From Methanobacteriota archaeon (lineage in GTDB: Archaea > Thermoplasmatota > Poseidoniia > Poseidoniales > Thalassarchaeaceae), in the NCBI GenBank assembly GCA_019654055.1, contig BPDA01000006.1, positions 1-58,921 of the forward strand: 58,921 nt of DNA, given 5' to 3'. The notes beneath the pieces are model-generated. The model had not been told where the DNA came from and did not search any database. It saw only the letters and a program-made list of their open reading frames with translations. The translations under genes and the position numbers were made by a program. Shown piece after piece: positions 1,419 through 58,921 of the stretch; position 1 is the first letter of the stretch; every line of letters begins with the position of its first letter.

Positions 1419-1498
1419 GCGCTCCTATAATCGAGGCGACACTTGAACATCAGTAACCGAAGCCACGATTTCACATAGCCAACCTTGATATGCGAGGC

Positions 1499-1521
1499 TC
1501 AACGGCTTCAAACCCCGTTGA
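1499..1521. repeat. Inverted repeat upstream of pyrG
   Basis: Seven-base arms TCAACGG and CCGTTGA are separated by a 9-nt loop and end four bases before the pyrG start codon at 1526. The loop is longer than in the stronger intergenic hairpins elsewhere in the window, so this is a weaker member of that set. It could form a 5' UTR hairpin or be an operator. Confidence 0.4.
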
Positions 1522-1525
1522 TTGC

Positions 1526-3184: not shown

Positions 3185-3406
3185 ATCATAGGTAGGGTTG
3201 TTCGGCTCGATTATTCTTCCCCCTGAGTCTTCTTCCTTACTCATTGACTGTGCCCAGACCTTTCTGAAAACGCCGTGTTCTCCATAAGACACGCCGCCAA
3301 TGGAATCCAGCCAGTATTCGATTTCATCGGGGGACTTGTTCAATCCAAGCAGGGCTATCCCATTCATCGGACCATTTAATACTCCAAGTTCTCTTTCCTT
3401 GTGCAT
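3146..3406 (-). CDS. Hypothetical 86-residue ORF, doubtful
   Basis: I do not recognise this protein. It starts [12 protein letters not shown] and includes the segment [14 protein letters not shown]. No membrane segment or known motif is visible. Its last 13 codons run antisense over the end of pyrG, which is unlike the tight ends seen at other convergent pairs here and raises the chance that the true end is altered by an indel. The segment is poorer in GC than its neighbours and is preceded by a strongly AT-rich stretch that could hold its promoter. It may be a real recently acquired gene, a gene remnant or chance. Confidence 0.35.
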
Positions 3407-3480
3407 TTTTTTGCTACAATACGCAATATTTCATACCAAATAATTTCTTTCTAATATATAATTTCTATCTATTCTATTTG
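3404..3480. promoter_or_regulatory. AT-rich intergenic segment with TATA-like sequences
   Basis: A stretch of about 80 bases made mostly of A and T, including T7, AATATTT and TAATATATAATTT, in a GC-rich genome. Read on the minus strand it gives TTATATATTA about 50–60 bases upstream of the orphan ORF start at 3406, so a TATA box for that ORF is plausible. It also separates the ORF from the thiolase gene downstream. No RNA gene or repeat was seen in it. Confidence 0.4.
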
Positions 3481-3513
3481 ACCCGTGTTAGGGGACAAAG
3501 AGTACCCTATGAT

Positions 3514-4514
3514 TCACGCCGTCTCTGCCAACCACTGCTTCATTGTGCAGGCCTGACAGACCTCGCGGCTGGTGATTTCGCCGCACTCCGAACAGTTTCT
3601 AACCTCTGAGACTAAGTCCTGATTGGCCTCGCGGTGCAGCCTGCGTATCTCATCAGGGAGTGCAGCAGGCCATGCCGCGCACCGGGTGTAATCGATTCCA
3701 TCTCAGCCACGATACCACGGCTCTGCTGGCGCATGGCGCCGGGTGCGTGAGGGCAGTCGCCATGGTACATCGGCAGCCCCTGGCACATCGCGTGTGCGTG
3801 AATCTCCTGCTCGGGAATCCATCGCAGGGGCACGATTCTTGGGGCGATGCCGTCTATCGGGCTCTCGGTGTGAGGGGCCAGCCTTACTGAGCGATCAATC
3901 TCGCCCTTCTGCATGTTCATCAGAATCGACTGCGCCATGTCGTCGAGGTTGTGGCCGAGAGCCATGACATCAGCGTTGAGCTTCTCCGCCAACGCGTTCA
4001 GGCCCTGACGGCGGAACACGCCGCAGTACGAGCACGGCATCAGCCCCTTGGCCTCGTCGTGGTTCTCCCCCATAGCGGGCATCCTCGTGACGACCTCGTC
4101 CATGCGCTCGTAACCCATCTCCTCGTAGCTCAGGGTCTCGAACCGCACTCCAAGGCTCTCGGCCAACTGCCTCGCGCACTCGAGTGATGGGGCCCTGTAT
4201 CCATCGATGCCCTCGTCAATGCAGCCCGAGCCCAACTCGACATCGCGGCGGCGGGCGAGGATGTCGTGCATCATGGTCAGCAGGACCGCCGAGTCCTTAC
4301 CGCCCGAGATGGCCACGAGTATCCGGTACGGGGAGCCGTCCTCGTGCCTAGCGTCCTTGGGCAGCCTGAGCTGCTGTCTGAGTTCCTTTGAGGTGCGCTT
4401 GCGTATGGAGGCGGAGAGGTGCTTGCCACACAGGTGCTGGCCACTGTAGGCCTGATGGATGACTGATGGCGACTTACAGCGACTGCAGCCCTCCACCGCT
4501 ATCGCCTCGGCCAT
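3514..4514 (-). CDS. TtuA/Ncs6-family tRNA 2-thiolation enzyme (frameshifted)
   Basis: PP-loop ATPase of the TtuA/Ncs6 (CTU1) family, which adenylates a tRNA uridine and replaces its oxygen with sulfur. The PP-loop is ISGGKDSAVLL. An N-terminal zinc-binding knuckle (CSRC, later LCGKH), the CSYCG pair, GHNLDD and YHGDCPH match cysteines that bind zinc and the iron–sulfur cluster in this family. One base is missing near 3664. Beyond it the other frame encodes the expected C-terminal zinc ribbon (CSECGE and CQAC) and ends at a stop at 3514. I start at ATG 4512–4514 (MAEAIAVEG); the upstream extension is not family-like. Repaired length is about 333 residues. Whether the target is tRNA position 34 or 54 cannot be told. 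Confidence 0.87.
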
Positions 4515-4620
4515 GCATCGCGCTCGGTGCGGCCGGGCTTGAACCCACTCATCGCCTATCAGCGGCGATTTGCGGTGCATTCATGGGTTCCATGGCAATC
4601 AATCGGACATGGAGGGAGCG

Positions 4621-4836
4621 ATGCCGCTGCCCGGCAAGCCGGCGCCGAGAGCGCCTCGGGACTCCTCCATACTCGAGAGGATATGTTTCATCGTGTCCGC
4701 AGTGGCAGTCTACCTCGGCTTCCCAGTGCTTGGTTTCCTACCGCTGCCGATCGCGCTTGTCGTGGCCGTGCTCTGCGTTCCACTCCTCGCCGAGGTCATG
4801 GTGCAGGTCGCCGCACGGCTGGGGCTGTTCCCCTAA
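4621..4836 (+). CDS. Small two-helix membrane protein, hypothetical
   Basis: A protein of about 71 residues, beginning MPLPGKPAPRAP, with two adjacent hydrophobic segments (around ICFIVSAVAVYLGFPVLGF and LPIALVVAVLCVPLLAEV). No family recognised. I choose ATG 4621 because GGAGGG lies four bases upstream; ATG 4609 (MEGAMPLPG) and a further in-frame start at 4570 are alternatives. Its stop overlaps that of the convergent membrane-protein gene by four bases (CTAA), an arrangement repeated at other convergent pairs in this window, which supports it being real. Confidence 0.6.
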   Translation: MPLPGKPAPRAPRDSSILERICFIVSAVAVYLGFPVLGFLPLPIALVVAVLCVPLLAEVMVQVAARLGLFP

Positions 4837-6065
4837 TCGGTCGAGCGGATTCTTCTCATCCCGGTCTCAATGATACCGGTGACGCGCTGCCAGGGCAGCA
4901 CGAAGCGCATACCAGCGACCACCAGAAGGAACAGACCCGCAGAAATTACCTTGCCATAGGTCAGCTGGAGTTCAAGTGACTCACGCACCTGGCCGGACCA
5001 CTGCGAGCCCTCGAGCAGCCCGACGAGTGATATCAGGAAGTCGTCGAACTCGAGTGCGATTGCGGTCGTGAGAGCGACCACTGACGTGATGCTGACCATG
5101 TGGACAATGTGGGAGTTCATCACGTTCCTGAACTGGTTCACGTACTCGGGGTTCCTCTTTGCCTCCTCGGGCAGCATTGCCGCGTACTCGAGGTGGCTAA
5201 TCACTGCAAGGCCGGACTCCATGAAGACGATGATTAGGATGGCTATCGATATCAGCGTCAGCGACAGCGGTGAGACCAGCCCCCCCTACAGGGTGGCATC
5301 GCCGATCTGGCCCGGCAGTGGCTGCAGCCCGACGTCGACTGCGTCGGTGATGCCTTCGAATGTCAGCATGGCGTGGATTCCCACGACCATCAGGAAATAT
5401 CCCACCGCCCATGTGATCATTCTCTTGGAAAGACCCCAGATGCCCATCAGGCCTGCTAGGATGGGGGCGAATACGATGCCTAGGAAGATCATCTCAAAGA
5501 TAAACATGAACGGGTCCCACAAGTGGTCTATGTGGTTGTAAGCAGGGTTCTCGTGACCGAACGGCAGGTGGGGGCCGGATAGTACCATGGCGTATATCCA
5601 CGAGAGCAGGAAGGGCAGCACCATCCAACCGATGAAGCCAATCGAGACCAGCCTGTTGACCCATGTCTGGACCTTCTCGGTCTGGTGCAGCAGGTAGACC
5701 CACAGCGTGGTCACGGCCACGCAGAGCAGCACGGGGGCGACAAAGGTCGCATCCCCGCTGAGAGTGTTGCCGGACAGGTCGACGAGCCCGTGCAGGAAGT
5801 CAGGCATGAACAGGTCGATGGTGTCCGAGTCCGACCAGTACCTAAGCCCCCTAGTGTGCTCGTAGGCTGGGCACCAGTAGATCGATTCCGGGCCTCCTGA
5901 GTCGGCGATGTACTGGTCGGTGCAAGAGCCGAAGACGCTGTTCATGCGCTTCATAATCAGCAGCAGCGAGGCGGTTGAGATGAGCTGTAGTACTAGGACC
6001 TGCCAGCGCCTACGCAGCTTGGGTATGTGCAGGGTCTGTGACTCGGGTACCGATTCCATCGCCAT
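4833..6065 (-). CDS. Multi-pass membrane protein of unknown function (frameshifted)
   Basis: One integral membrane protein of about 410 residues, split by a single missing G near 5286, where the two halves join in the hydrophobic stretch LVSPLSLTLISIAILIIVF. I see roughly seven hydrophobic segments, including VLVLQLISTASLLLIM, APVLLCVAVTTLWVYLL, IGFIGWMVLPFLLSWIYAMV and ISAGLFLLVVAGMRFVL. A loop between the first two holds two cysteines (GSCTDQ and YWCPAYE) and may face outside. No family recognised. It is the last gene of a minus-strand run after DUF4350-like and DUF58 genes, 11 bases after the DUF58 stop, so a shared cell-envelope role is inferred from position only. Confidence 0.7.
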
Positions 6066-6076
6066 ACTTGACTCTC

Positions 6077-7345
6077 CTAGACCGACCTCACCTGCAGCAG
6101 CGCCTGCGAGAGTTCGACATCGGGCATCCAGTCAATCACCTTGGCGCCGTAGCCCGAAATCGCCGTGAGTCTGTTCTGCCTCTCCAGCTTGAGTACCTCG
6201 TAGGACATCCTCGGGATCCGGCTGACCAGTCGCTCGAGGTCGATACTGCTAGGCGAGAGGACGATGACCTCGTGACCCTTGCCCGCAAGGTGGCGTATGG
6301 CGGGTAGGGTAGTGCCGTCGCCCTCGAGGCTGCTGATGATGAAAACCGGCGAGCCCCTGCTCATCCTCGCGGACATCGCGTTGGTCACCGCTTGCAGGGG
6401 CATCGATCCCTTAGCCTCGACCGCCGCGAGTCTGCTCAGAATCTTGTAGTCCTGCTTGTCGCCGGTCTCTGGGGTTAGGAACTCCATCTTCTCGCCGTAG
6501 GTGACTAGGGCAACCGAGTCACGCCTTCTGATGAAGTAATTCGAGACCGAGGCGGCGGCGACGGTTCCCATCTCGAGTGGGTTCTTGAGGACGGTTCCTA
6601 TCCTCGAGACGTCCCTAGTGTCGAGGAAGATGAAGACGTCGGTTACCGCGTCCCTGGTCTTCTCGTTGACCATCAAATCGCCGGTCTTGGCGTAGGCCTT
6701 CCAGTTAATCGAGCGGAAGGCGTCGCCAGGGAGGTACTCGCGCAGTGAGTAGAACTCCATGCCCTGCCCGGGGGTCTTGAGTGTGGTCGCTCCGGTGTAC
6801 ATTTTAGGCACGTCGGAGCGCAGCAGCGCCTCCTCAATCTCGCGTACCTGAGGGAACACCGTGACATCCGTGCGATCCTCTATCTGGGACTCGTTGACGT
6901 AGAGGTTGAATGAATTGCGGTATCGGACCGATATCGGACCTATCGTGTAGTGTCCGCGCAGCGGGCAGCGGACCCTGTACTTGATGCGGGCAGTTTGGCC
7001 GGGTCCGAGGTTCATGCGCATCTGGTTGATGCCCCTGCGCATCTTCATCTCGTGCGGCACGTTGTCGAAGACCTCTAGCTGCTGGGTCCTCCTGTAGGAG
7101 TTGTTCGTGACAGTCAGCTCGACCACGACGTCATCGCCCTTGTAGACGTTGATGTCGTTGGTCTGGGTACCATTGATAGTCCGGGTGATTTCGAGTTCGG
7201 AGTGGCCTGATACCCAGCCGTTGATGGCGAGGAACGAGATGAAGGTCAGGCCGACTATCATCAACTGGAAGTTGGATATCATCATCCCAATCAGAATCAG
7301 GCTGATGCCGCTGGTCACCATCAGGGAAGCCTTGCGTGTCCACAT
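6077..7345 (-). CDS. DUF58 domain protein (vWA-like), membrane-anchored
   Basis: A 422-residue protein with two N-terminal hydrophobic segments (SLMVTSGISLILIGMM and FQLMIVGLTFISFLAI), then a beta-rich region that resembles an immunoglobulin-like fold, then the DUF58 block with DAFRSINWKAYAKTGDLMV and a von Willebrand A-type strand VFIFLDTRD. DUF58 proteins usually sit with MoxR AAA ATPases and transglutaminase or DUF4350 proteins and are linked to envelope assembly or metal-dependent protein maturation. Here the gene follows a DUF4350-like gene directly (stop and start adjacent) and no MoxR is in the window; the upstream AAA gene is Cdc48-type. The family call is good; the biochemical role is unknown for the family. 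Confidence 0.85.
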   Translation of the reverse strand: MWTRKASLMVTSGISLILIGMMISNFQLMIVGLTFISFLAINGWVSGHSELEITRTINGTQTNDINVYKGDDVVVELTVTNNSYRRTQQLEVFDNVPHEMKMRRGINQMRMNLGPGQTARIKYRVRCPLRGHYTIGPISVRYRNSFNLYVNESQIEDRTDVTVFPQVREIEEALLRSDVPKMYTGATTLKTPGQGMEFYSLREYLPGDAFRSINWKAYAKTGDLMVNEKTRDAVTDVFIFLDTRDVSRIGTVLKNPLEMGTVAAASVSNYFIRRRDSVALVTYGEKMEFLTPETGDKQDYKILSRLAAVEAKGSMPLQAVTNAMSARMSRGSPVFIISSLEGDGTTLPAIRHLAGKGHEVIVLSPSSIDLERLVSRIPRMSYEVLKLERQNRLTAISGYGAKVIDWMPDVELSQALLQVRSV

Positions 7346-44935: not shown

Positions 44936-46516
44936 CTAATCCCTGTGGCTCCCTGGTGATGCCTTGATCACCGTCTGAGTGCTGTACGGCCTGCGCTGGA
45001 CTTCCAGCGCCTCCTTGTCCTCGTCAATCGCCAGCACAACGAACAGCCCGCCCGAGATCACGGTGACCGCTGCTGGAACCCATAGCGCCCAAGGCTCCCC
45101 GGTCCAGAACATCAGACGCAGGACTATAGCGAATACCAAGTTGACCATCGAGAGCGGGAGCAGGTAGCGCCATCCGAACTCAAGGATCTGGTCCGTGCGG
45201 ACCCGGTGGAGAGATGCGCGAATCCAGACGAAGACCGCGAACAGTCCCCATGCCTTGAGCAGGACCCAAGACACACCTGGGATGAGTGAGAAAACGAAGG
45301 ATATCAGCCCGCCCACCAGAGGCAGGTCAGAGAGTGTGTGCTGAAACGGTGCCTCCCAACCTCCAAGGAAGAACAGGGCGAACAGTATGCACGCTGCGTA
45401 GGCGCGCATGTACTCTGCTGCGAACATCAGCCCCCAGCGGATGCCACCGTACTCGGTCCACCAGCCCTCCACGAGTTCGGCCTCTGCCTCGGGCATGTCA
45501 AACGGGATTCGCTCGACCTCGGCGATCATAGTGACTAGGAAGAGAAGGGCCCCCAGAGGCATAAGGAAGATGTTCCAGACGTTTCCTTCGTCCTGCCCCA
45601 TCTGGAAGTCTACTATCTCGATGATGTTGAACGAGCCGCTCAGCACCGCGACACCAAGGACCGTGATCAGCAGCGGGATCTCGTAGGCGGTGAGTTGCGC
45701 TGCTGAGCGCATGCCCCCGATCAGGGTGTACTTGTTGTTTGATGCCCAACCAGCGAAGAACACGCCGAGGGGAGCTACTCCGAAGATGGCCATCATGAAG
45801 ATGAGCGAGAGCTCTGGGTTGGCAGCGTAGATGTGAGGTCCGAACGGGACGAACGCGAACACCATGACGGTGGTGGCTAGGATGATGACGGGGGCGACCT
45901 CGTAGACCACCTTGTCCGCGTTCCTCGGGACGATGTGTTCCTTGGTCGCGAACTTCATGAAATCGGCGAAGGCCTGGAAGAAGCCGGGTAGCAGGAACCA
46001 GTATCCGTGGTAACTGCGGTTATTGACCCGCGAGACCGTCTCGAGCTCGTGTGAGTTCCCCCATGTGGAATTTAGTGCGTTCACTGCCCAGCCGATGGGA
46101 GTCCCCATCCCGAACGGCAGCTGATTCCACCACTCACCTGCAGTGACGCCGCTCTCGCCTACCCACAGACTCCTGAGGGTGGTGGTGGCACCTAGCCTGT
46201 CCATCAGACGACCTATGAACTTCCGCTCGATGTACGGTATGGCCAGCATGGTCGTCATCATCATGCCAAACACCACTGTGCACATGATGGTGGCATGCAT
46301 GAACGACTCAAGAGCGGGTTGGATGCTAGCGAAACCGCTCTGGATGTTGAATATGGGGCCGACCGTGATCGGGTTCTGCCAGGCCCAAGTGCTGGGAATG
46401 GTCACTTCCATGTCGATGTCACTGGAGGGCAGTATATCGTGCACGTTGTCCATCGACCAACTGCAGAAGGACTCTGACCACCCAGTTATGTCCATCCAAT
46501 CACTGCTAGCCATCAT
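44936..46516 (-). CDS. nuoH: Complex I subunit H (NuoH)
   Basis: A 526-residue membrane subunit that links the peripheral and membrane arms and forms part of the quinone site. Landmarks are MLAIPYIERKFIGRLMDRLG, a glycine-rich WAVNALNSTWGN insert region, FADFMKFATKEHIVPRNADK, FFAGWASNNKYTLIGGMRSAAQLTAYEIPL, VERIPFDMPEAEAELVEGWWTEYGG and WIRASLHRVRTDQILEFGWR. It is longer than common NuoH at the N-terminus, which carries about 70 extra residues before the first canonical helix. Overlapping arrangement with nuoD (TGATATGATG). Confidence 0.93.
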   Translation of the reverse strand: MMASSDWMDITGWSESFCSWSMDNVHDILPSSDIDMEVTIPSTWAWQNPITVGPIFNIQSGFASIQPALESFMHATIMCTVVFGMMMTTMLAIPYIERKFIGRLMDRLGATTTLRSLWVGESGVTAGEWWNQLPFGMGTPIGWAVNALNSTWGNSHELETVSRVNNRSYHGYWFLLPGFFQAFADFMKFATKEHIVPRNADKVVYEVAPVIILATTVMVFAFVPFGPHIYAANPELSLIFMMAIFGVAPLGVFFAGWASNNKYTLIGGMRSAAQLTAYEIPLLITVLGVAVLSGSFNIIEIVDFQMGQDEGNVWNIFLMPLGALLFLVTMIAEVERIPFDMPEAEAELVEGWWTEYGGIRWGLMFAAEYMRAYAACILFALFFLGGWEAPFQHTLSDLPLVGGLISFVFSLIPGVSWVLLKAWGLFAVFVWIRASLHRVRTDQILEFGWRYLLPLSMVNLVFAIVLRLMFWTGEPWALWVPAAVTVISGGLFVVLAIDEDKEALEVQRRPYSTQTVIKASPGSHRD

Positions 46517-46517
46517 A

Positions 46518-47654
46518 TCACCTGTCAGTCTCCCCTATGCATGGGTCGAAGGAACCCATGATGGCTGGTATGTCGGCGACCTTGTAGCCGATCATGCACT
46601 TGGCCGCGTATGGAATCGTGATGAACATGGGAGATCGTATCGAAACCCTGTATGGCTGCTTGCCTCGTCCCTCTCCGCCGCCAGCGATGTAGAACATCGA
46701 CTCCCCCCTACTGTCCTCGAAGTGATGTGCACCGGTCGTCCCCTCTGGAGCCCTAGTCGGTGCCTTTGCTAGAATCATCGGGTCTTCCGGCTCGTGGTAG
46801 GTGTCAGCACCGCCGGGCATCTTGTCAAGAGCCTGTAGCACCAAGGACGCGCTGACGCGCATCTCCTCGACTCTGACTCTGTATCGGTCATAGCAATCGG
46901 CGCCCTTGATCGACGAGCGTTCGACAGGAGGTGCCCAGTCGAGTTCGCTGTATACCGAGTATGGGTGTGCCCAGCGGATGTCGTAGTTCACTCCGCCAGC
47001 GCGTAGGTTCGGGCCCGTGACCCCGTGGTTGACCATCTCCTCGGGCTTGGCGTAGCCGACTCCTTGGCTGCGAACTAGGAACACCGTGCTCTCGTCGAAC
47101 AAGGCCTCGTACTCCTGAATCCTATTCAGGAACAGCTTGAGCTTGGCCCGCGCCCGCTGGGCGAATCCATGCGGGAGGTCGCGCTTCACGCCGCCGACGC
47201 GAGGGAAGTTGTAGTGCATGCGAGAGCCACCGAGTTCCTGCAACAAATCCATCATCATCTCGCGTTCGCGGAGGCACCACACCATGACGGAGAGGTTGCC
47301 GATGTCGGGTCCGTAGGCCCCCAGCCACATCAGGTGGCTCGCTATTCGCTGCAGTTCCACCGCCACCAGCCGGATGTACTCGGCCCGCTCCGGCACCTCA
47401 ACCTCCAGAAGGTCCTCGGCGGCGTAGATGTAGGCGTGCGACCACGTGTTGGCACTGGCGTAGCAGAGTCTGTCGCAGTAAGTGGTGATCTGGGTGAAGT
47501 CTCGGGACTCGCATATCTTCTCGACTCCCCTGTGGATGTAGCCTAGGTCGGGTTCGGTGTCGACGACGGTCTCGCCGTCGACCTTGACCTTGAGCGTCCA
47601 TAGACCGTGGGTCATTGGGTGCTGAGGGCCCATTGAAATCCACATCTCCGCCAT
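46518..47654 (-). CDS. nuoD: Complex I subunit D (NuoD)
   Basis: A 378-residue subunit of the quinone-reducing module, derived from a hydrogenase large subunit. Typical sequence: MGPQHPMTHGLWTLKVKVDGE, DLGYIHRGVEKICESRDFTQ, and RLCYASANTWSHAYIYAAEDLL, with the quinone-site His and Tyr region intact. The end FDPCIGETDR matches the usual C-terminus. NuoC is a separate gene just upstream, as in many archaea. The start follows the nuoC stop in TGAGGTGGAAAGATG. Confidence 0.94.
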   Translation of the reverse strand: MAEMWISMGPQHPMTHGLWTLKVKVDGETVVDTEPDLGYIHRGVEKICESRDFTQITTYCDRLCYASANTWSHAYIYAAEDLLEVEVPERAEYIRLVAVELQRIASHLMWLGAYGPDIGNLSVMVWCLREREMMMDLLQELGGSRMHYNFPRVGGVKRDLPHGFAQRARAKLKLFLNRIQEYEALFDESTVFLVRSQGVGYAKPEEMVNHGVTGPNLRAGGVNYDIRWAHPYSVYSELDWAPPVERSSIKGADCYDRYRVRVEEMRVSASLVLQALDKMPGGADTYHEPEDPMILAKAPTRAPEGTTGAHHFEDSRGESMFYIAGGGEGRGKQPYRVSIRSPMFITIPYAAKCMIGYKVADIPAIMGSFDPCIGETDR

Positions 47655-47663
47655 CTTTCCACC

Positions 47664-48323
47664 TCACTTAATCTTGCCAACGTCGGCTGGCTTGCGCATG
47701 AATCCCTGAGCGTCGTCGTACATCTCCTCGAAGCCGTGATAACGCAGATGATGCTGCTTCTGCAGAGGATGGAATCCCTGGGGGGTCTCATGCGGCTGCA
47801 GAACCCTCCTCATGCCCTGATGGCCGTCGAAGTCAATGCCGACTAGGTCCCAGGTCTCCTTCTCGTTCCAGTCGGCCCCCACCCAGATGTCCTGCACCGA
47901 ATCCACAGACGGGGTCGTGGTGTCTGGGATGTGGACGTGAATCTCGAGCTCGATAGGCACACTGGCTCCCCTCAACTTCGTGGGATTCGCCATCATGGGC
48001 CGGACTAGGCCGTTCTCGATCGGGGGATCCCTGACCCCGGTCCTCAGCAGGTGGTACACCACCTCCCATCTGCGCTCGGCTTCGACATCGGGCCAGTGGA
48101 TGCCGGTGACCATCGAGCAGTGATCTACGGCGTGCTCCGAGTAGAGATTCTCGGCTAGGAATCTCCAGCTCTCTGGTGATGCACTGACAACCACCACGTT
48201 TCGTGGGTTTGTGCCGCTCGATCGCTCTACCACCTCTGCTTCCACGCCCTCGATTGCTGACGCCGCATCGGCGACCGCCTGGGCGGCAGACTTCTGGGAA
48301 TCGGGTGAAACTGTATTGCCCAT
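47664..48323 (-). CDS. nuoC: Complex I subunit C (NuoC)
   Basis: A 219-residue peripheral-arm subunit. The C-terminal half has the 30-kDa-subunit signature: WEVVYHLLRTG, ELEIHVHIPDTTTPSVDSVQDIWVGADWNEKETWDLVGIDFDGH and MRRVLQPHETPQGFHPLQKQ. The N-terminal half holds an alanine-rich segment (SAAQAVADAASAIEGVEAEV) before the conserved core. It is separate from NuoD, not fused. Neighbouring stop and start are eight bases apart. Confidence 0.9.
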   Translation of the reverse strand: MGNTVSPDSQKSAAQAVADAASAIEGVEAEVVERSSGTNPRNVVVVSASPESWRFLAENLYSEHAVDHCSMVTGIHWPDVEAERRWEVVYHLLRTGVRDPPIENGLVRPMMANPTKLRGASVPIELEIHVHIPDTTTPSVDSVQDIWVGADWNEKETWDLVGIDFDGHQGMRRVLQPHETPQGFHPLQKQHHLRYHGFEEMYDDAQGFMRKPADVGKIK

Positions 48324-48331
48324 GCTAACTC

Positions 48332-48928
48332 CTACTCGTCTCCGGGAATCATGGGGGCAGTGGAAGCCGGGATGGCGTCGTCGGGGGCCGCACCTATTCG
48401 GATAATCTTCTGCCGCAGTTTGTCGAAGCCGTCAATCAGAGCCTCTGGCCTCGGTGGGCATCCTGGTATGTATACGTCGACCGGAATGACCGTATCGACA
48501 CCTTCGAGGATGTTATACGACTGGAAGTAGGGTCCGCCGGAGATGGCGCACTCGCCCATGGCGATGCACCACTTCGGCTCGGGCATCTGCTCCCACAGCC
48601 TGACTATGGGATCGGCGAACTTCTTGCTTACCGGACCGTTCACGAGAAGGACGTCGCACTGCCGGGGACTTGATCTGAAGAAGACCCCGAATCGTTCGGC
48701 GTCGAATCTGCTGGCTCCGGCTGCGGCCATCTCCAATGCGCAGCACTTGATGCCGAGGTGGAGCGGGAACAGGGACTTGCGCTGTCCCCAATTGAACATC
48801 CTGCCAGCGAGTACCCCGATGATGTCCTTCATCCGGCTTGCCTTAAGCGCCTCGTCGGTGACATCGCCCACCACGTCCACAAGCATCCTGCTGTTGAAGA
48901 CCGAGTAGTTCTGACCCTCTTCCGCCAT
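48332..48928 (-). CDS. nuoB: Complex I subunit B (NuoB)
   Basis: A 198-residue subunit holding the terminal [4Fe-4S] cluster N2. Cluster ligand motifs are GIKCCALEMAAAG (adjacent cysteines), GECAISGGPYFQSYN and VDVYIPGCPPRPEALIDG. VLLVNGPVSKKFADPIVRLWEQMPEPKW sits between them as expected. Its start follows the nuoA stop in TGAGGTGAGCGCATG, with the stop codon inside the Shine–Dalgarno sequence. All ligands are present. Confidence 0.95.
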   Translation of the reverse strand: MAEEGQNYSVFNSRMLVDVVGDVTDEALKASRMKDIIGVLAGRMFNWGQRKSLFPLHLGIKCCALEMAAAGASRFDAERFGVFFRSSPRQCDVLLVNGPVSKKFADPIVRLWEQMPEPKWCIAMGECAISGGPYFQSYNILEGVDTVIPVDVYIPGCPPRPEALIDGFDKLRQKIIRIGAAPDDAIPASTAPMIPGDE

Positions 48929-48937
48929 GCGCTCACC

Positions 48938-49384
48938 TCAGATGTAGATCCGCCCTCGCTTTCGGAACACGTGCCACACCCCGAGCCCCATCAGGATGAT
49001 GAATGCAGTAAGGGTAGCCAGAGCGCCGATGATGTCCTCGTTCAGCATGCCGTCTTGGACGGCGATGACACCGCCGAACGCTAGGAACATGAAGGCGATG
49101 TCGAAGACTAGGAAGATGATGGCGTACCAGTAGTACTGGAAATGGAAGTTGATGTGGGCGTCCCCGACAGGCTCGGCACCGCACTCGTAGGTGCTGTCCC
49201 TGCGGATGTACAGGCTCTGGTCGGTCTCGTAACCCGGAAGCAGCCAAGACCGCATCTTCGTCGGGTCATTAGGTGATTTTCTAGGCCTGAGGACCGCTGC
49301 CATGACGAAACTACCCACGGGGAATCCGATTCCCACTAGCGCCATCACAGCGACAGCGAGATAGGCCTCGGGAACAGAAGTCAT
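48938..49384 (-). CDS. nuoA: Complex I subunit A (NuoA)
   Basis: A 148-residue, three-helix membrane subunit and the first gene of the operon. Landmarks are STYECGAEPVGDAHINFHFQYYWYAIIFLVFDIAFMF with the conserved cysteine in the loop and Asp in helix 2, and the last helix LATLTAFIILMGLGVWHVF. Start at ATG 49384, six bases after a 30-nt inverted repeat and with no Shine–Dalgarno sequence in the gap. A TATA-like GCTTATTG at about 49440–49448 on the minus strand would place the transcript start at about the upstream edge of that repeat. Confidence 0.92.
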   Translation of the reverse strand: MTSVPEAYLAVAVMALVGIGFPVGSFVMAAVLRPRKSPNDPTKMRSWLLPGYETDQSLYIRRDSTYECGAEPVGDAHINFHFQYYWYAIIFLVFDIAFMFLAFGGVIAVQDGMLNEDIIGALATLTAFIILMGLGVWHVFRKRGRIYI

Positions 49385-49475: not shown

Positions 49476-52170
49476 CTAGTCCTCAAACTGATTTTCGAGG
49501 GCCTCGGCTATTCGACGGTTCTCCGAGCGCGAACGGAAGAACAGCACTATGACGAGAATGGCACCTAGGACTATTGAGCCGTAAACGAGGGCTTGGGCCA
49601 TTTCCTCGGACAGGCCGATGAAGGTCGAGGGCATCTCGGAAGTCATTGTCAGGTCGATGGGTTCGCCTGCGACGGCGAGCCCCTCCGGCTGAACTGTGAC
49701 AGTGAACAGGTAGGTGTCGTCATCCAGCAGATCGCTGGGCGGAGTGACGCTGACTTGGACCTCCTTGGTCGAGCCAGGTTCGAGCTCGAACTCATCGAAG
49801 TCGACGTTTACCGTCCAGCCCCTTAGCGACTCGCTGGAGATTACCTGGACGTCCTCGACGATGTTTCCGTGGTTTGTGATATACAGAGTGAAGTAGGCCT
49901 TGTCCGGGTACTCAGCGGTCTGTTCGTCCTCGCCCTCGAGAGTGAATCTGAGGTCGTGAATCGTCCTGACCTCGACGATGATGTCGACGGAGGTGCTCTG
50001 AGCTGTATTCTTCTCCGACGAGGCGCTTACTTTGACCACGCCTGCGACGCCATTGGCGACGCCCTCCAGGACCTCCAACTGGACCTCGACGAGTGCTCTC
50101 TCGCCCATCCCCAGCGTCATCGTGCCCTCGACCTCCACGCCCTCTACCGTTATCGTCCTCAATACGGAGGATTCCATTCCGGTGACGGTGATTACCGCGG
50201 TGTCCCCTCCGGGGTAGTCACCGGTGTTCTCGACCCAGAACGACGCAGTCATGGAACCACCAGGAGGGAGGGTGGCCTCAATCTGGTCGGGTATCTCACC
50301 CGGGCTCTGGGGCGATATTGCCATGGCGTAGTTGTAGTTTGAGACTACCACGCTGAGTGTGTGCTCGTCCGACTCAGTGGTTCCGTAGATTGCTATCCTT
50401 GCCAGCACGCTAGCAGAGTCAGCGTCCTCCTCGCCCTCAACCAGAATATCGAGATATACCGTCTGCATCTGCCCCGGATCCAAGACGATCTGCGTGATTG
50501 TGTTCCCTTGCGAGTCAGAGAATGACGACTCCCACATGGGGGAATTGCACCCAGTCTGGTCTCCTGGGTCACAGGCCAGCAGCTTGAATGTGTCCTGGAT
50601 GTTTCCAGAGTTGGTCACATCGATTGGGAATTGGACCGTCTGGCCGGTTTTACCCGTCTGTTGGGTAGACAGTACGGAGGTGGTGACGCTGTGGCGAGCG
50701 GCCACTGACACTGTGAGGTCCTTCGAGTCATAGGGTGTACTGCCCCCGCCGCGCCCGACCGTGAAGGTGATGACCGTGTCCTCGGCCGCGCTCGCGTCCT
50801 CCGGGACGAAGATTTCGGCAGTGACTGTCTCCTTGTTGTTGCCGGAGTGCGAGCTACCGATGGTCACCGAGGTCTGGGAGAAAGAAATCTGCCAACCCGG
50901 AGGCAGTCCCGTGGCGCCTATCGACATGGTCTCCATGCCGTTGCCCCGGTTGGTAATCTGAACGCTTACCGTGTCTGAACTACCTGGCTCCACGTTGCTG
51001 AGTTTGTTCTTGCTCAGAGTCATCGATGCTTCGTGGCTCTGACCTACCGTGACGGTCAGAATCTGTTCACAGCCGACTGAGGTCCCAGCACGTCCTTGTA
51101 TCTTGATTCCGACTTGTGTCCCGGACTCTACGGAGTCATCTGGCGTCACGCTGAAGGTGAACGTATGGCTGTCTTGGGATCCTCCCGGCTCCGAGAGAAG
51201 CTTGCTGAGCGGGCTATCGAAGTCAAACCATCCCGAGATATCGTACTCGGAGTCCTGAGCCTGAGCGTTGGCAGTGACCGTCCACTCCGTGTTTCCAATG
51301 TTCTCCACCTCGAACGAGTTGGTGGCCGAGGCCCCGGGATCGAGATTGTGGGAAGTGAATTGTAGGTCGGGCTCACACTCCTTGCGCTCTGGGATCTTGA
51401 GGGTCAGAGTGATGTTGTCTTCAGCCTGATCAGCAGCATTTGGGTCATTTGTCACCGTGGCCTTGAGGATGAAGCAATGGTCGCCCGCCTCAGTCGAGCT
51501 CCCATCAGGCACATCGACGGTCACTTCGACGGTCTCCTTGTCCTCGGGATCGAGTTGCAGTACCTGCGGATCGACGGTGGCATCTAGGGTGTCGGACTCG
51601 CAGTCGCTGTCCGAAGTCATCTCCAACTGGACGTTCGCCTGCTGCTCGCCGTTGTTCTCGACCTCGACGTCCCAGACCACGCTGTCGGACTCAGTCGAGT
51701 CCCCATCGTAGGTCTTCAGCTGCTCATCGGTGGTCAGCTTGACTGAGTAGAGTCCACCGCCGTCGCCTGCGGTGGTGGTCACCGTCACGTCGTCACTGGC
51801 GGGGGACCCTATGCCACCCGTTGCTTGGGCGTTGACGGTGGTCTCGCAATCGCCATCGGCCTGGTCGTTCACCGAGACCGTTAGTTTGACGGTCTCGGAC
51901 TCGCCTTCGTTGACCGTGACTTGGAACGTGTCCCAGGGATGAGCTGAATCCGTTGCAGTCGTTGCCCTGCTGGGTGCTGAGGGACACTGTGATGTCCTCA
52001 TCGCCGTCATTGGTCACGATGATGTCATACTCGGCGTCGTCATCTGTCGTGGCCTCCTGAGCCGTGGGGTTCGCGGAAAGCGACACTGAAACGGCCGCTG
52101 AGGCTAGTGGTGACGCGATTGTGAGCAGCAGCATCGCTGTGAGGATTGCTGCAGAAGGAGTACGCTCCAT
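49476..52170 (-). CDS. Large secreted surface protein with repeated Ig-like domains and C-terminal anchor (frameshifted)
   Basis: About 898 residues after repair. The N-terminal signal (AAILTAMLLLTIASPLASAA) is in one frame, and the remainder follows after a one-base slip near 51950, where GNDCNGFSS joins AHPWDTFQVTV. The body is a series of roughly 100-residue beta-sandwich repeats of the NEW3/CARDB type, each with a motif like DPGQMQTVYLDILV, PPGGSMTASFWVENTGD or EPGSTKEVQVSVTPP. The C-terminal helix AQALVYGSIVLGAILVIVLFF is followed by a short basic tail (RSRSENRR). It probably projects from the cell membrane. It lies downstream of the subtilase gene on the same strand and may form its partner or a surface-layer component. 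Confidence 0.78.
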
Positions 52171-52235: not shown

Positions 52236-55200
52236 TCACGCTTCAACCAGTTCGTCGGAAGAGGAGTCGCAGTGCAGGCAGTTACCCATCGAAACGATGT
52301 CGCAGCCCTGCACCTGCCCTGCCCTGTGGTACCTAGCGCCACACTCGGAGCAGGCCCACGCCTCGCCCAGTGTGATGTCCTGACTACATATCCAGCAGGG
52401 AATGCCACTACCCTCCTCTTCCTCATCTTGTTCGCCCAGTCCGAGACTGTCCGCTATCTTGCTCAGGGAGTCAGTCTGAATCAGGCTAGAGGAGTTCTCC
52501 CCCCTGCGGGAGTAGACATAGAGGCCGCCACCCACTAGAGCCAGTACGATTAATGCGATGAGGAGTGTCTCGACCAGAGAGCTCCCCTGCTCTCTGGCGG
52601 CAGGAAGGACGTCGATCTCTATGCTGAAGGAATAGCCTTCGATGTCGTCGGCTTCGACCAACTCGACCACGACGACTCCATCATCCCCCGAATCAGGGGT
52701 GAATCCCACATCCAGACTCCTAATCTCGCCCGGTCTGAGGCTGACCACCACGCCGTCGAGGATCAACGGGTTCCATCCCTCCGGCCCGGAGACCTGGAGG
52801 ATGTGGGAGATTTCCGAGTTCCCGGTGTTCTCCAAGTCGATGTACAGCGTGGTTGGATATCCCTCGTGCCCGGTGGGCTGGTTTGTCAGGGACCAGCTCA
52901 CTCTGGCGACTGACTCCACAAGCAGGGAAACCGAGTCACTGACCTCCACGCCCTCGCCCTGCATCACGAGGGTGACGATGGGCTCGGAGGATGCCTCGGC
53001 CGAGAGGGGTATAACCACTGTGCACCAGACCGTGGACGAGGCTCCTGCAGCGAGCGAGGAGGGGGCGGAGCAAGACGACGACCAGTCATCGTCGGGCACT
53101 TCGAGGTTAGTGGTCGGGCGCCAGGTTGTCGAGCCTTGGTTGGTGACCATCCAAGCGAGATCGAAGCCGGGGTCGCCGACCGGGTGGGCCCCGACTCCCA
53201 GCGGGTGGTCTGCGACGGTGCCATCGGGCAGGGCGACCATGTGGAAATCCAGAGTTGGAATTGCCCCCGAGAGGACGTTTAGAGTCCTGTTCCAGTCAAC
53301 GTAGAAGCCGTCACTTGTGGCGAATCTGAGTTCCAGATCTCCGCTGACGGCCACTCCGTTGCCCTGCAGTGATACCGACCAGACACCGGTCTCGCCGGAT
53401 GGAATGCTGATGCTGTCAAGCCCACCTGATACGGTCCACCCTCCGGGTATGTTCCGCACATACGGCTGCAAGTCCAGCAACCGGTTGCCGTGATTGTTGA
53501 GCTCCACTTCGATCTCTAGCAGCGCGTCAGGAGCGATGTCGTGCTCGACTCCATCAGAGGACGGTGTCGTGGTGACCTCGTCTATCGCCCTTACCACAAG
53601 CGGAATGTCCTCGCTCCATGAGTCGGAACTGACTCGTGAGTGGATGGTCACCGCGGCGTCGAATACCGAGCCTGCGGGTATCATCGCCCCAGGTGGGTTA
53701 ATCGTGATGTCGATGACTCGGCCCGAATCCTTGGCCATGGTCCCGGTGGAGCCATGCGAGGATCCAGTGAACGCTCCGAGGGTATCCAAACCGAGATGCC
53801 AGCCGGCAGGTGAGACCAGTTCCACGTCGTAGGTCTGGGCGCCGTTGCCCTCGTTGAAGACCAGTATCTGCAGTTCCGTTGGCTCGAGTGGGCTGACCAA
53901 GAATTGCTCACTCGGCATTACGATGTCGACTCCGGCCAGAACGGGCACGTCGAAGTAGATCACGAGCTCAGAGGTGACACTGTTCTCGACGTCGGTCCCA
54001 GTCACGACCATGCTGTAAAGTCCGGGTGGTGGTGGCGCTGGGTGGACCATTGTCAGGCTCACCGATTCGGTCTCGGCCGCTTCTAGGTTGAAGGTGTTCG
54101 ACGTGAACGAGGTGAACCAGTCGTACTGCATTCCGTTCTGGATTCTCACGGGGTCGCTGACCTCTATCGTGGCGTTGGTCTCGAACAGGGCGGTATTCAT
54201 CAGCGAGAGATGCCATGTGGTCGAACTGTCAGTGGCGTCGCCTAGGGTTACCGTCTCCTGCTCGGATGAAACCCTGACTCCCGGCGCGCTGACAACCACC
54301 GTCTGGGTGAGGTAGTTGTTGCTCTCTGAGGCCTCCTCGACAGTGTCGCTCGGGTCTATGTGGAAGGTGAATACGACATCCCCCTCCTGGGTCGCCGTCC
54401 AGTTCCACTCGAGTACGGTCGACTCTCCTGGAGACATACTTAGTTGGTGGGTCCCGAGAAGGTCGCTATCTGCCCGAGCGATGACGGATAGGTCGGCGAC
54501 GGAACCGGCGCCTTGGTTCTGAATGACGACCGAGACATCCACCTCCTCCCCCACTTGGGGAATCGGCGAGGATATCTCGAAGGAGTTCTGTACGAAGGCT
54601 GGGTCCGGGCTGAGGTCGTTGACGTTGACGCCTCGCACGGCGAGTGCGTACGGCTGCCACGTTCTGCCACCACCGTGCTGGGCGTCGCGCACGCGCACCG
54701 TCCACGTCCCGGTGGCGGCGTTGTCGATTAGCACGACCTCGACGTTGTTGGTCGAGTCCTTGGTCCCGCCAGTCACCGAACGCCCGTTGACGAATGCGTT
54801 GCCCTTGTATGAGACCTGTCCGTTGGGTGAAATCACCTCTAGGTCGAGGTCGTTCCTGAGTTGGTCCGAGGAAGAGGAGGATCCGGGGTAGTCCGACCAG
54901 GTCAGTACGACCTTCATGGGCTCGCCCGCGCGTGTGATGTCGAACGTGTACTCGCTCGTCTGCCCGCTTGAGAGTCTCGAGCGGTCGTCTACGAAGATCC
55001 CGACATCGCTGTCAGGAATCAGTGAATCGACTAGGTTCACCCTGCCCCACCCCTCGTCGTCGTTGGGGATGTCGCGGGCCCCCATGTCCTGAGCGCCCAG
55101 TATCAGAAGTCCCTTGATTAGGGCACCTTGGGGAGCTTGTCTGCCGATGACCTCCATGAGGTACTCCCTGACGAGTACGGCCGCTCCAGCCGCCGCGGGG

Positions 55201-56732
55201 GTGGCCATCGAAGTGCCGCTGTACTCGAGGTACCAGTTGTTGCTCCAAGAGCCCTGAGCGCTGTCCGCCTCCTGCGACTTGCACGACCTGACGTAGTCGC
55301 CTGGTGCGACGAGGTCGGGCTTAATCCTGCCATCGTCAGTCGGACCTCGGCTGCTCCAGTAGTACATCTCGTCGGGAGCACCGCTGTATCGATTCTTGTG
55401 ACCGCCGATGGTGATGACGTTCTTGGCGGTCCCAGGAGGTGAGACGCCGTCGTTCCTCTCGTTGCCAGCAGCGAATAGCACCGTCATCCCTTGGTAGGAC
55501 CAGTACTGGTCCCACGTTGCGGTGCGATCGTCGGCGTCCTCCGACTGTGTGGAGTAGCTGCCGCCCCCGCTGCCTGCACCCCAACTGTTGGTGTGTAGGC
55601 GCGCGCCGTTGTTGTAAGCCGAATTGAGCATGCTGTTGATGCCGTAGCTGTACAACTGCCCTGTATCGTCGTCCTCCATGGCCTGGAAGTAGACCTGTGC
55701 CTCGGGTGCTACTCCTTGGTAGGTGCCGCTGCTCCGGGACCCATCACCCATCACGGTGCAGGCGACGTGGGTGCCATGCCCATCGGAGAGGTCAGCAGTC
55801 GAAGAGTCACCGGGGGTGACCGAGGTCAGACCGGCAATGCGTCCGGTGAAGTCTCCGTGGTCGTCATCAAGTCCGGAATCGCCTATGGCGATTTTTTGCC
55901 CACTGCCGTTCAGTCCAGTGATGAACGTGGTCTCGACAGAGTTGATTCCCATGTTCACTCTGGCCTGGTCATTGTGCAGAACCAACAGCGGCATCGGCGC
56001 GACGTAGGAGACGGACGGGTGCCTGACTAGGTCATCCACGTAATCGAGAGAAATCATTCCCCACATCCTGCCCTGCTCGGGGGACCAAGCCTCCTCCAAC
56101 CATAGGGAAGCTGCCATCTCCAAGGAATCCTCGAAACCCATTCCCGGCTGGTCATGGCGTATCAGGTCCGAGTCCTTCCAACCTAGGACCTCGACTAGAA
56201 GCGACTGCTCACCGCTCGCCATCCTCAAATCGGGATGGATGAGGAGGCCTGAGGGGACTGCGTATACCGCCTCGACAACCTCTGTCCGGGAGAGCGTCGA
56301 GATGGTCTCGGGTGTGGCCTGCACTAGGAATCCGGAAGGTGGTATTGTGGATCTGACCTCAAGATCACCTGCCTCAAGAAGGGCCTGCCTTCCCTCCCAG
56401 AGACCAACCTCGCCATCAATGAGGACCATTGCCAGATCGCTCCTTGGCTGAGCCAGTTCGGTGCTCATCTGAACCGCGGGGATTAATCCGGAAAGAGTGA
56501 AGACACCTATGCTGGAGTCTGCTCTGGTTGCTCTGATGTCCTCGAAACCGGAGTAGATTGTTGGCGCCCCAAGGTCCTGAATGCTATTGGAATCAGGAGA
56601 GATTTCCACCCTCTCGTACATGCCATCCAACGACGGCGAAGAGGTGTCTGTGGAATTCTTTGACTGCTCGATTACTGGGATGTATGACAGTAGAAGAATG
56701 GCAATCATCAGCGTCACGGAGCGCTTTGTCAT
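52236..56732 (-). CDS. Giant membrane-anchored subtilisin-like protease with CARDB repeats and C-terminal zinc finger
   Basis: A 1498-residue secreted serine protease. After a signal segment (SVTLMIAILLLSYIPVI) and a propeptide-like region comes an S8 catalytic domain: Asp about 285 in AIGDSGLDDDHGDF, His about 322 in DGHGTHVACTVMGDG, Asn about 424 in AAGNERNDG and Ser about 508 in YSGTSMATPAAAG. A P-domain-like segment, CARDB domains (VVIQNQGAGSVADLSVIARAD) and further beta-sandwich repeats follow. A helix at about 1385–1407 (VETLLIALIVLALVGGGLYVY) spans the membrane. The cytoplasmic tail has an acidic linker and an eight-ligand zinc site (Cys 1446, 1449, 1461, 1464, His 1469, Cys 1477, 1485, 1488). 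Export of peptides for feeding and signalling across the membrane are both possible. Confidence 0.9.
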   Translation of the reverse strand: MTKRSVTLMIAILLLSYIPVIEQSKNSTDTSSPSLDGMYERVEISPDSNSIQDLGAPTIYSGFEDIRATRADSSIGVFTLSGLIPAVQMSTELAQPRSDLAMVLIDGEVGLWEGRQALLEAGDLEVRSTIPPSGFLVQATPETISTLSRTEVVEAVYAVPSGLLIHPDLRMASGEQSLLVEVLGWKDSDLIRHDQPGMGFEDSLEMAASLWLEEAWSPEQGRMWGMISLDYVDDLVRHPSVSYVAPMPLLVLHNDQARVNMGINSVETTFITGLNGSGQKIAIGDSGLDDDHGDFTGRIAGLTSVTPGDSSTADLSDGHGTHVACTVMGDGSRSSGTYQGVAPEAQVYFQAMEDDDTGQLYSYGINSMLNSAYNNGARLHTNSWGAGSGGGSYSTQSEDADDRTATWDQYWSYQGMTVLFAAGNERNDGVSPPGTAKNVITIGGHKNRYSGAPDEMYYWSSRGPTDDGRIKPDLVAPGDYVRSCKSQEADSAQGSWSNNWYLEYSGTSMATPAAAGAAVLVREYLMEVIGRQAPQGALIKGLLILGAQDMGARDIPNDDEGWGRVNLVDSLIPDSDVGIFVDDRSRLSSGQTSEYTFDITRAGEPMKVVLTWSDYPGSSSSSDQLRNDLDLEVISPNGQVSYKGNAFVNGRSVTGGTKDSTNNVEVVLIDNAATGTWTVRVRDAQHGGGRTWQPYALAVRGVNVNDLSPDPAFVQNSFEISSPIPQVGEEVDVSVVIQNQGAGSVADLSVIARADSDLLGTHQLSMSPGESTVLEWNWTATQEGDVVFTFHIDPSDTVEEASESNNYLTQTVVVSAPGVRVSSEQETVTLGDATDSSTTWHLSLMNTALFETNATIEVSDPVRIQNGMQYDWFTSFTSNTFNLEAAETESVSLTMVHPAPPPPGLYSMVVTGTDVENSVTSELVIYFDVPVLAGVDIVMPSEQFLVSPLEPTELQILVFNEGNGAQTYDVELVSPAGWHLGLDTLGAFTGSSHGSTGTMAKDSGRVIDITINPPGAMIPAGSVFDAAVTIHSRVSSDSWSEDIPLVVRAIDEVTTTPSSDGVEHDIAPDALLEIEVELNNHGNRLLDLQPYVRNIPGGWTVSGGLDSISIPSGETGVWSVSLQGNGVAVSGDLELRFATSDGFYVDWNRTLNVLSGAIPTLDFHMVALPDGTVADHPLGVGAHPVGDPGFDLAWMVTNQGSTTWRPTTNLEVPDDDWSSSCSAPSSLAAGASSTVWCTVVIPLSAEASSEPIVTLVMQGEGVEVSDSVSLLVESVARVSWSLTNQPTGHEGYPTTLYIDLENTGNSEISHILQVSGPEGWNPLILDGVVVSLRPGEIRSLDVGFTPDSGDDGVVVVELVEADDIEGYSFSIEIDVLPAAREQGSSLVETLLIALIVLALVGGGLYVYSRRGENSSSLIQTDSLSKIADSLGLGEQDEEEEGSGIPCWICSQDITLGEAWACSECGARYHRAGQVQGCDIVSMGNCLHCDSSSDELVEA

Positions 56733-56803: not shown

Positions 56804-57358
56804 CTAGAAGAACCGGTACTGGGTCTCGTCGAAGAACAGCTCCATCGTCCATCCTCCCACATCGTGCGTCCACCTCTCGCTCCTCTGGCCGGAGTAGGAA
56901 TCGTAGTAGAGCAGAATCTCGATGGTGTAGTTCTCCCACACCGAGGCACCATCGATGAGCAGCTCCATGTCGTCACCTGAGACCGATGAGTGGGCTGGTA
57001 GGTACTCTCTCTGGAACGATGACCTAGATACCTCTAAGCCATCCGAATCAATGAACCTAATCTGCAAATCGATGTTCTCGATGGTCCGGCTGCCGTCGTT
57101 GTCTAGTTCGACCAAGACGACGTGGCCCGGTCCTCCCTGTCGGTAAACCACGTCCAGACTCACTCTGTCGTAGGGGACTATCCAAGTCAGGACGAATAGG
57201 CTGGCAGACAACAGTAGTACGACTGTCAGGGAGGCGAATATGACCCGAGTTGGGGAGATGAGTCGGGTTGCTCCCTCCTCAATGCTCTCCAGCACCTCGT
57301 GAGCCATCTCCGTGTCGGCCTCCTCGGCCTCGCTGCTGAGTTTCTCGAGCAGTCCCAT
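56804..57358 (-). CDS. Single-pass membrane protein with outer beta domain, hypothetical
   Basis: A protein of about 184 residues starting MGLLEKLSSEAEEADTEMA. A charged cytoplasmic helix is followed by a transmembrane segment (RVIFASLTVVLLLSASLFVLTWIV) and an outer beta-rich domain with GHVVLVELDNDGSRTIENIDLQIRF-like strands, ending YDSYSGQRSERWTHDVGG. No family recognised. I pick ATG 57358 because a full GGAGGTGA lies five bases upstream; a GTG at 57367 overlaps it. It follows the right-edge surface gene (stop TGA one base before its ATG), so the two are coupled. Confidence 0.65.
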   Translation of the reverse strand: MGLLEKLSSEAEEADTEMAHEVLESIEEGATRLISPTRVIFASLTVVLLLSASLFVLTWIVPYDRVSLDVVYRQGGPGHVVLVELDNDGSRTIENIDLQIRFIDSDGLEVSRSSFQREYLPAHSSVSGDDMELLIDGASVWENYTIEILLYYDSYSGQRSERWTHDVGGWTMELFFDETQYRFF

Positions 57359-57359
57359 G

Positions 57360-58921
57360 TCAATCACCTCCTAGTAACGTGGCCAGCAAGGTCAGTATCG
57401 CCGATGAGAAGGGCTCGATGACCATCACGTGCTTGGTCGAGCCGCTTATTCCTGGAATCATGTTGAGAAGTGACAGGTCCGAGGCCCCAAACCATTGACC
57501 CCCAGAGTCGTGCCAGTCGGAATCCCATCGGTAATCTGAGCATCGAGGAGGACGCCCCTGAAAATCGAACTCGGTCCCCTCGAACTCAGCTGAAGCGCGG
57601 GCGGAGACGATGATTCTCTCGCCTTGCACGTCATCCAACTCGATGATGCTGTACGGGGCCACCACTTCCCTGATGTTCACCGTGGCCCGCTTCAGGTTCT
57701 CCCCCAGTGCCTCTAATTCCTCAAGCACCATCGGCGGGGTGACGGGTACATTGCTGAGACGGATGTACATGCGCTCGACCCCGTCCCCACCCGTTTCTGA
57801 TTGCGAGGCCGAATGACTGCGTGGTCTTGATTGACATGAAATCGGTCATTCCCTCAGCTAGGAGAATAGTGTCCCCTCTCTTGTTTATCGCTCTGCCAAA
57901 GGCCTCGATGTACAATGACATTCCTTCCTCCGAGGCCCTGAAGTCCAGAGTCGGGGTGCCTTGGAAAGCTAAGTTCTGGGTTATGTCGAACTCAAGGGAG
58001 GGGGCCGTTGTCAGGTTTATCCATCCGGGCACGTCGGTCAGGAAAATCGTCGCCGGCCACCAAGCTGAGTCCAGCCACTGCATCTGTTGCATCATTATGG
58101 CACCGACGGCCGAACCCTCGCGCCGAAACTGCTCGGGAACCGTCATGTCGATGGATATCTCCCTGCCTAGGCTGGCTTGGAGGTCGACTGTCTCGGGAAT
58201 ATCATGAATCATAACCTCCGTCCTGCTTCCTGCCTCTCTGTTGATGAGCAGTATGTGGACCCAATCCAGCCTGTCGGAGAGGACGTAGTGAGTCGATGTG
58301 GTGACCTCTGTAATCTCACCGACCGTCCTAATCTCGAAGATTGCATCGAGGCCGAGGTCCGTGGGCACACCCACGCTCAGACCCTGCAGGGTGAGCAGTA
58401 GGTCCTGGCCGTTGACACCGTAGACTTGGAACATGAACTCGCTGTGTGCGGGGACCCATCCCTCGAGTCCCAGACTGATTGTCCAATCTTGGCCGTTGAC
58501 TTCGTTCGACCTAGATATGGATAGATCAATCGTCGGAGGTAGATCGGGGAGCCATGCCCTCAAGTGGAATCCATCAGCGATTCCCGTGGGAGCTGACTGG
58601 AAAGCGAATCCGTGAACCCAAGTCGGCGCCTTGAGGGAGCCGTCGCCGTGTACTGCCTCCACAGTGAGGTCGAACATGGAGTCTGCCTCGAGTTGGATGC
58701 CAAAGGAAAAGTCCTCTCCGGACTCGGAGCTGGTAGAGATATCCGAAGTAATACCTGACAGGACGCTGTTGACAGATTTTGCCGAGATTAGCGAAACCGC
58801 TGATGAAGAAAACGACCCCCGAAAGTCCGTTCGATGTGTTTAGCTCGGGGACATCGAGGCTTGCTCCGGAGTCGGTTCCCGTCGGAATCTGTACCCCGAC
58901 AGTCGAAGGAAGTGGATCGAT
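57360..58921 (-). CDS. Secreted or surface protein, partial at right edge, frameshifted
   Basis: The 3' part of a large gene that leaves the window on the right. I do not recognise the family. Two slips are seen: one near 58815 in a G5 run, where the frame of VGVQIPTGTDSGASLDVPE passes to FSSSAVSLISAKSVNSVL, and one near 57792, after which the repaired reading is ERMYIRLSNVPVTPPMVLEE. The visible part is beta-rich, with no cysteine cluster, and closes with a hydrophobic stretch (EPFSSAILTLLATLLGGD) that may anchor it. Its stop is directly followed by the single-pass membrane-protein gene, and the subtilase gene lies beyond, so it is part of a cell-surface gene cluster. Confidence 0.65.

Follow-up and report, generated by a model that had tools for sequence, protein, structure and literature searches.

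A conserved RING-like tail on an outer subtilase of Poseidoniales archaea, and its repeated loss or replacement

Marine Group II archaea are abundant, protein-degrading and uncultured inhabitants of the surface ocean, and we know of no account of how their cell surface communicates with the inside of the cell. The DNA analyzed here (hereafter the window: 58,921 nucleotides from the genome of a Candidatus Thalassarchaeum-like member of the order Poseidoniales, Marine Group II) encodes a large subtilase that ends, beyond a membrane helix, in a short cysteine-rich tail resembling a zinc finger. What could such a finger be doing on the inner side of an outer protease? A preliminary description of the locus suggested a receptor-like layout, which might link outside proteolysis to a cytoplasmic partner or hold the protease at an inner scaffold.

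According to the available part of an earlier study, all Marine Group II genomes encode one to four extracellular S8 copies (PMC6864105), the enzyme class to which the window subtilase belongs; that part makes no mention of a cytoplasmic finger or of tail exchange on these enzymes. Neither the tail nor its exchange was described in the literature searched, which covered few subscription papers.

The subtilase and its neighbors

The following features of the window, all on the minus strand, are needed for the argument:

52236..56732 (-): gene of the S8 subtilase, a type I membrane protein of 1498 aa with a single pass (open reading frame, hydropathy, Pfam, orthologs)
56661..56732 (-): signal-peptide-like segment, residues 1-24 (MTKRSVTLMIAILLLSYIPVIEQS; hydropathy; orthologs start alike)
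55044..55907 (-): Peptidase_S8 domain, residues 276-563 (PF00082, E 5e-44)
54306..54563 (-): CARDB domain, residues 724-809 (PF07705, E 8e-17)
52695..52862 (-): NEW3-like beta-sandwich adjoining the membrane, residues 1291-1346 (PF10633, 24.2 bits, slightly below the cut-off of 24.4 bits)
52509..52577 (-): membrane helix, residues 1386-1408, then SRR (hydropathy 2.44; charge bias)
52410..52508 (-): variable acidic linker, residues 1409-1441 (7% identity to sister-family orthologs)
52239..52409 (-): C4HC3 RING-like tail, residues 1442-1498, 57 residues (motif, conservation, AF2, profile match)
49476..52170 (-): surface protein with NEW3/Ig repeats and a membrane helix near its C-terminus, frameshift-split here (100 of 101 loci)
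56804..57367 (-): small membrane protein of 187 aa without a Pfam match (94 of 101 loci)
57360..58677 (-): long gene of relatives, frameshift-split in the window, no Pfam match (91-92 of 101 loci)
44936..49384 (-): complex I genes nuoA, B, C, D and H, downstream on the same strand (Pfam; conserved order)

The protein has the hallmarks of peptidase family S8, namely the domain, an Asp/His/Ser triad (D285, H319, S508) and an oxyanion Asn (N424). All four residues are invariant across every aligned ortholog that is ungapped at those positions, which argues that the subtilase is probably an active protease. Its strongest hydrophobic stretch spans residues 1386-1408, in agreement with the helix earlier placed near 1385–1407, and the second strongest is the signal-like N-terminal segment. 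Lys and Arg are commoner on the C-terminal than on the N-terminal helix flank in 80 of 90 RING-tailed orthologs (9 ties). Because of this positive-inside bias, together with the signal-like N-terminus, the tail probably lies on the cytoplasmic side; a topology with the tail outside, which had been named as the finding that would speak against the proposed layout, is not favored. The layout as first described (a large outer protease, beta-sandwich domains, here CARDB and NEW3, one membrane pass and an inner finger) is thus supported.

The order U3/U2–U1–subtilase–NEW3–nuoABCD is common to Poseidoniales, and U3/U2, U1 and NEW3 also flank the subtilase in lineages whose tail has been swapped; the shared order identifies the subtilase genes as positional orthologs. 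All of these neighbors are membrane or surface proteins, apart from complex I, and no conserved cytoplasmic regulator or partner adjoins the subtilase across 101 loci.

Two of the neighboring genes are interrupted in the window. The NEW3/Ig gene is read as two frames (51793-52170 and 49476-52010, minus strand) but forms one 905-aa stop-to-stop frame at two relatives' loci (L111 and L112), so that the split likely reflects an assembly indel or a broken gene. Upstream of the subtilase, the overlapping frames 57360-57770 and 57721-58677 (minus strand) are fused in L111 into a single frame no shorter than 679 aa, so that the window has a second frameshift of its own.

Motif, kinship and fold of the tail

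The tail reads C1446-x2-C1449-x11-C1461-x2-C1464-x4-H1469-x7-C1477-x7-C1485-x2-C1488, exactly the eight-ligand pattern originally reported, and its ligands, in the order C4HC3, cover window positions 52269-52397. It holds seven of the eleven cysteines of the subtilase, the other four being spread across the ∼1385 residues outside the tail. Seven of the eight ligands are kept in all 89 RING-tailed orthologs and the eighth, C1477, in 87 (the exceptions being one masked base and one alignment gap), with a spacing of C-x2-C-x(10-11)-C-x2-C-x4-H-x(2-7)-C-x(4-7)-C-x2-C in which the x4 between Cys and His is constant; a GARY/GARF core is likewise present in 89 of 89 tails. Against sister-family orthologs the S8 domain is 62% identical, the membrane helix 19%, the linker 7% and the tail 37%; the tail therefore forms a conserved island downstream of an unconserved linker. 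Conservation of the ligands across 89 orthologs excludes a chance motif, and the eight ligands presumably bind zinc.

Assignment to a finger family is less straightforward, and the resemblance to RING or PHD-type fingers in the preliminary description held in part. The C4HC3 order is found in PHD fingers and in prokaryotic RINGs (PMC11354881) but not in the canonical RING, which is C3HC4 and defined as C-x2-C-x(9-39)-C-x(1-3)-H-x(2-3)-C-x2-C-x(4-48)-C-x2-C (PMC11354881); besides the order, the tail departs from this definition by the four residues ahead of its His. A PHD finger would have H-x2-C, where the window tail has H-x7-C and just two orthologs have H-x2-C. Membership in either canonical class was therefore rejected on spacing, whereas kinship to prokaryotic RINGs stood.

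That kinship emerges from profiles rather than from single sequences. Alone, the window tail scores 20.1 bits against Prok-RING_1 (PF14446), under the curated cut-off of 29.1, which is exceeded by no tail among 95 relatives. A search with the tail profile retrieves C-terminal fingers in other Thermoplasmatota, however, and one protein bearing such a finger (L191) scores 51.9 bits against Prok-RING_1, over the same cut-off; in hhalign, the tail profile matches these C-terminal fingers with a probability of 98.0% (E 1.5e-13), the target alignment being led by accepted Prok-RING_1 members. Poseidoniales tails share with Prok-RING_1 the C4HC3 order, the C-x2-C / C-x2-C-G-A-x-Y-H core and the C-terminal position. 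They differ in the distance from His to the next Cys, usually six or seven residues instead of two, although two orthologs of genus g15 have the compact, Prok-RING_1-like spacing.

Structure prediction gave a divided answer. For the window tail, AF2 gave a confident model (pLDDT 87.6, pTM 0.72) that matches RINGs first: its top 15 PDB matches are almost all RING or RING-like, and RING fingers make up most of its best hits among PDB and viral structures, although the E-values are modest throughout. A model built from sister-family tails, nearly as confident (85.2), matches rubredoxins first, with the RING-type E3 entry 3lrq lower in the list. Because the two models have different best fold matches, we do not claim a cross-brace fold; what we claim, from sequence comparison, is that the tail is a divergent homolog of prokaryotic RING-type fingers (Prok-RING_1).

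Distribution, replacement and sharing of tails

With the single tail as query, most of 98 relatives proved to carry it, and a phylum-wide profile search at E below 1e-13 detected it in 110 of the 128 Poseidoniales genomes, with one strong match per genome, nearly always on a frame of ∼1500 aa. The subtilase ortholog itself is present in nearly every Poseidoniales genome searched. In a tree of the outer parts (FastTree, midpoint root, some long branches) the RING tail occurs in both families, which points to a tail that was probably present in the ancestor of the order. The same tree requires at least five changes, all on well-supported branches, by which the tail was lost or replaced. On loss of cysteines in orthologs, counted beforehand as evidence against a finger, the picture is mixed: the ligands are never lost singly, but at least five lineages have given up the entire tail or exchanged it, each of them retaining the protease.

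The substitutes are small modules to which we have given names; ‘PGWLWD’ and ‘UBA-like’ were coined in this analysis, and Pfam recognizes neither. A PGWLWD...W(V/I)(P/A)D module ends nine subtilase orthologs in genera g6 and g7, whose genomes contain no RING-like tail of the subtilase type anywhere in the profile search. A UBA-like helical module is found on two orthologs, from two g10 genomes, and a helical GYPEEKA tail on two more (g20). Three orthologs (two from g15, one from g18) have no recognizable tail module. Lineages whose tail is plain and polar or near-absent (L059, L214 and L218, near-absent in the latter two) show that no tail module is indispensable. The swaps are unlikely to be assembly artefacts: swapped tails recur in nine and in two genomes, they form clades, and their gene neighbors are unchanged.

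These modules are shared with other large surface proteins. Of 30 genomes tested, 29 carry PGWLWD, mainly on a surface protein of ∼1450 aa that has beta-helix and Ig domains and is unrelated to the subtilase; the window's own genome has such a protein (G000:C4, locus L314). In the sister family an FG-GAP protein of ∼2100 aa ends in the UBA-like module, as does a DxDGDG-repeat protein in genome G040. The RING-like tail, too, is found elsewhere on surface proteins, where the preliminary description had advised looking for it in relatives: on an 823-aa protein in G053, on proteins of 1349-1416 aa in g5 and of 1209 aa in g8, and on an Ig protein of 975 aa from a different family of Thermoplasmatota. 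This variety of carriers indicates that tails and ectodomains recombine.

Several proteins with such tails have features of their own. At L314 the PGWLWD protein (951-5273) is a 1441-aa beta-helix/Ig surface protein; the product of the next gene (5277-6500) is, by Pfam, an AAA_16/STAND ATPase that also has a Crp-like HTH, and the gene that follows the PGWLWD protein looks similar in L315 and L316. The two products could possibly form a surface sensor/cytoplasmic regulator pair. After the ∼2100-aa FG-GAP/UBA-like protein, in L318, L319 and L333, comes a gene whose cytosolic product begins with a conserved ‘GIEVDxAAAYFG’ stretch and is a candidate partner. L229, L330 and L331 encode a second S8 paralog of ∼1600 aa with a recurring tail, LP-x-GWTM(E/D)QW. 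An 823-aa surface protein at L045 (2759-5227) has, besides a RING-like tail, several copies of a Trp-rich GSGxWWxW segment in its inner part. In the Thermoplasmatota family f24, proteins of ∼1600 aa (L191, L192, L195, L196 and L208) end in a Prok-RING_1 finger and have no predicted membrane helix and no other Pfam domain (Pfam on L191), and L193 and L194 each hold two Prok-RING_1-finger genes, of ∼1000-1100 aa, close together.

Possible roles of the tail

We consider it reasonably probable, at about 60%, that the subtilase is a membrane-anchored outer protease with a divergent prokaryotic RING-type finger serving as a non-enzymatic docking module in the cytoplasm. The finger would bind a cytoplasmic protein or scaffold, with docking and partner both inferred, and binding would position, retain or quality-control the outer protease; if this task is generic, small tail modules of other giant surface proteins could take it over. 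A tail that is strictly conserved and yet replaceable by modules of unrelated ectodomains is best explained as such a docking or address module, and we infer an exchangeable module rather than a dedicated enzyme or receptor.

The main alternative is a receptor-like protease, in which cleavage or ligand binding outside would alter the finger inside and so signal to a dedicated cytoplasmic partner. The layout of the protein and the strict conservation of the finger are what such a receptor would lead one to expect, and the STAND/AAA ATPase with its Crp-like HTH that follows a surface protein with another tail hints at a signaling role for some of these tails. That the finger has been lost or swapped for unrelated modules while protease and neighbors were retained, with no conserved cytoplasmic regulator adjoining the subtilase, makes this rather unlikely; the replaceability of the tail suggests anchoring of the protease at an inner scaffold in preference to a dedicated signaling output. 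Replaceability, and the near-absence of a tail in L214 and L218, would also be consistent with a passive anchor, a small folded knob or stop that holds the protein in the membrane without a specific partner. Such a knob would hardly call for conservation so much stronger than that of the linker, down to the CGARYH core, or for substitutes that are particular recurring modules instead of random tails, and we regard it as improbable.

Two further readings would give the finger a chemistry of its own. Rubredoxins bind through four Cys in two knuckles, and the CPxCG knuckles of the tail, the rubredoxin matches of the sister-family model and the nuo genes conserved downstream could together point to an iron or redox site, perhaps tied to complex I. 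A site needing four Cys does not account for eight invariant ligands, one of them His, nor for homology to C4HC3 fingers and the RING matches of the window's own model, and this reading seems to us very doubtful. Still more improbable is a RING E3-like ligase that attaches a ubiquitin-like protein to cytoplasmic or membrane proteins, for all that the RING-like fold matches and the kinship to Prok-RING_1 might suggest one. RING E3s characteristically have an E2-contact residue in the first Cys-x2-Cys, and linchpin residues usually just past the last ligand. In the tails the usual contact position varies (I, V, L, S, N, A, G or H), while the last ligand is followed by D, N, G, Q, S or E and never by Arg or Lys; 95 relatives contain no UQ_con (E2) match, a weak point as control genomes were also without one. 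Eukaryotic transmembrane RING proteins of the ZNRF3 type resemble the subtilase in their extracellular domain, single membrane pass and inner RING-type finger, but they are C3HC4 E3 ligases that work with an E2 and have no protease domain, and their match to the tail in sequence is at chance level.

Membrane proteases joined to zinc fingers have a parallel among prokaryotes too: Burroughs and Aravind reportedly linked prokaryotic treble-clef domains to membrane peptidases in 2011 (e.g. archaeal AN1-rhomboids). These systems also have an inner zinc finger attached to, or partnered with, a membrane protease, but involve other finger classes and other proteases, while in Poseidoniales the protease is extracellular and the finger RING-like.

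What is new here is evolutionary, as far as sequences reveal it: at a conserved locus the tail has repeatedly been lost or exchanged, and the substitute modules are common to unrelated giant surface proteins. A conserved inner domain on an outer protease found throughout the order offers a concrete handle for finding inner partners, since each tail can serve as bait and lineages that have it can be set against those that lack it. As a RING-type finger on a membrane protease for which a role in ubiquitin transfer is unlikely, the tail also bears on what such fingers did before, or do outside, ubiquitin. More tentatively, the giant type I surface proteins of Poseidoniales might share interchangeable cytoplasmic tails that serve as address or docking tags, all of them recognized by one scaffold or sorting apparatus inside the cell, an alphabet (RING-like, PGWLWD, UBA-like, GWTMEQW and others) in which the subtilase tail would be one letter; if true, this would imply an inner scaffold or sorting machinery not described in archaea.
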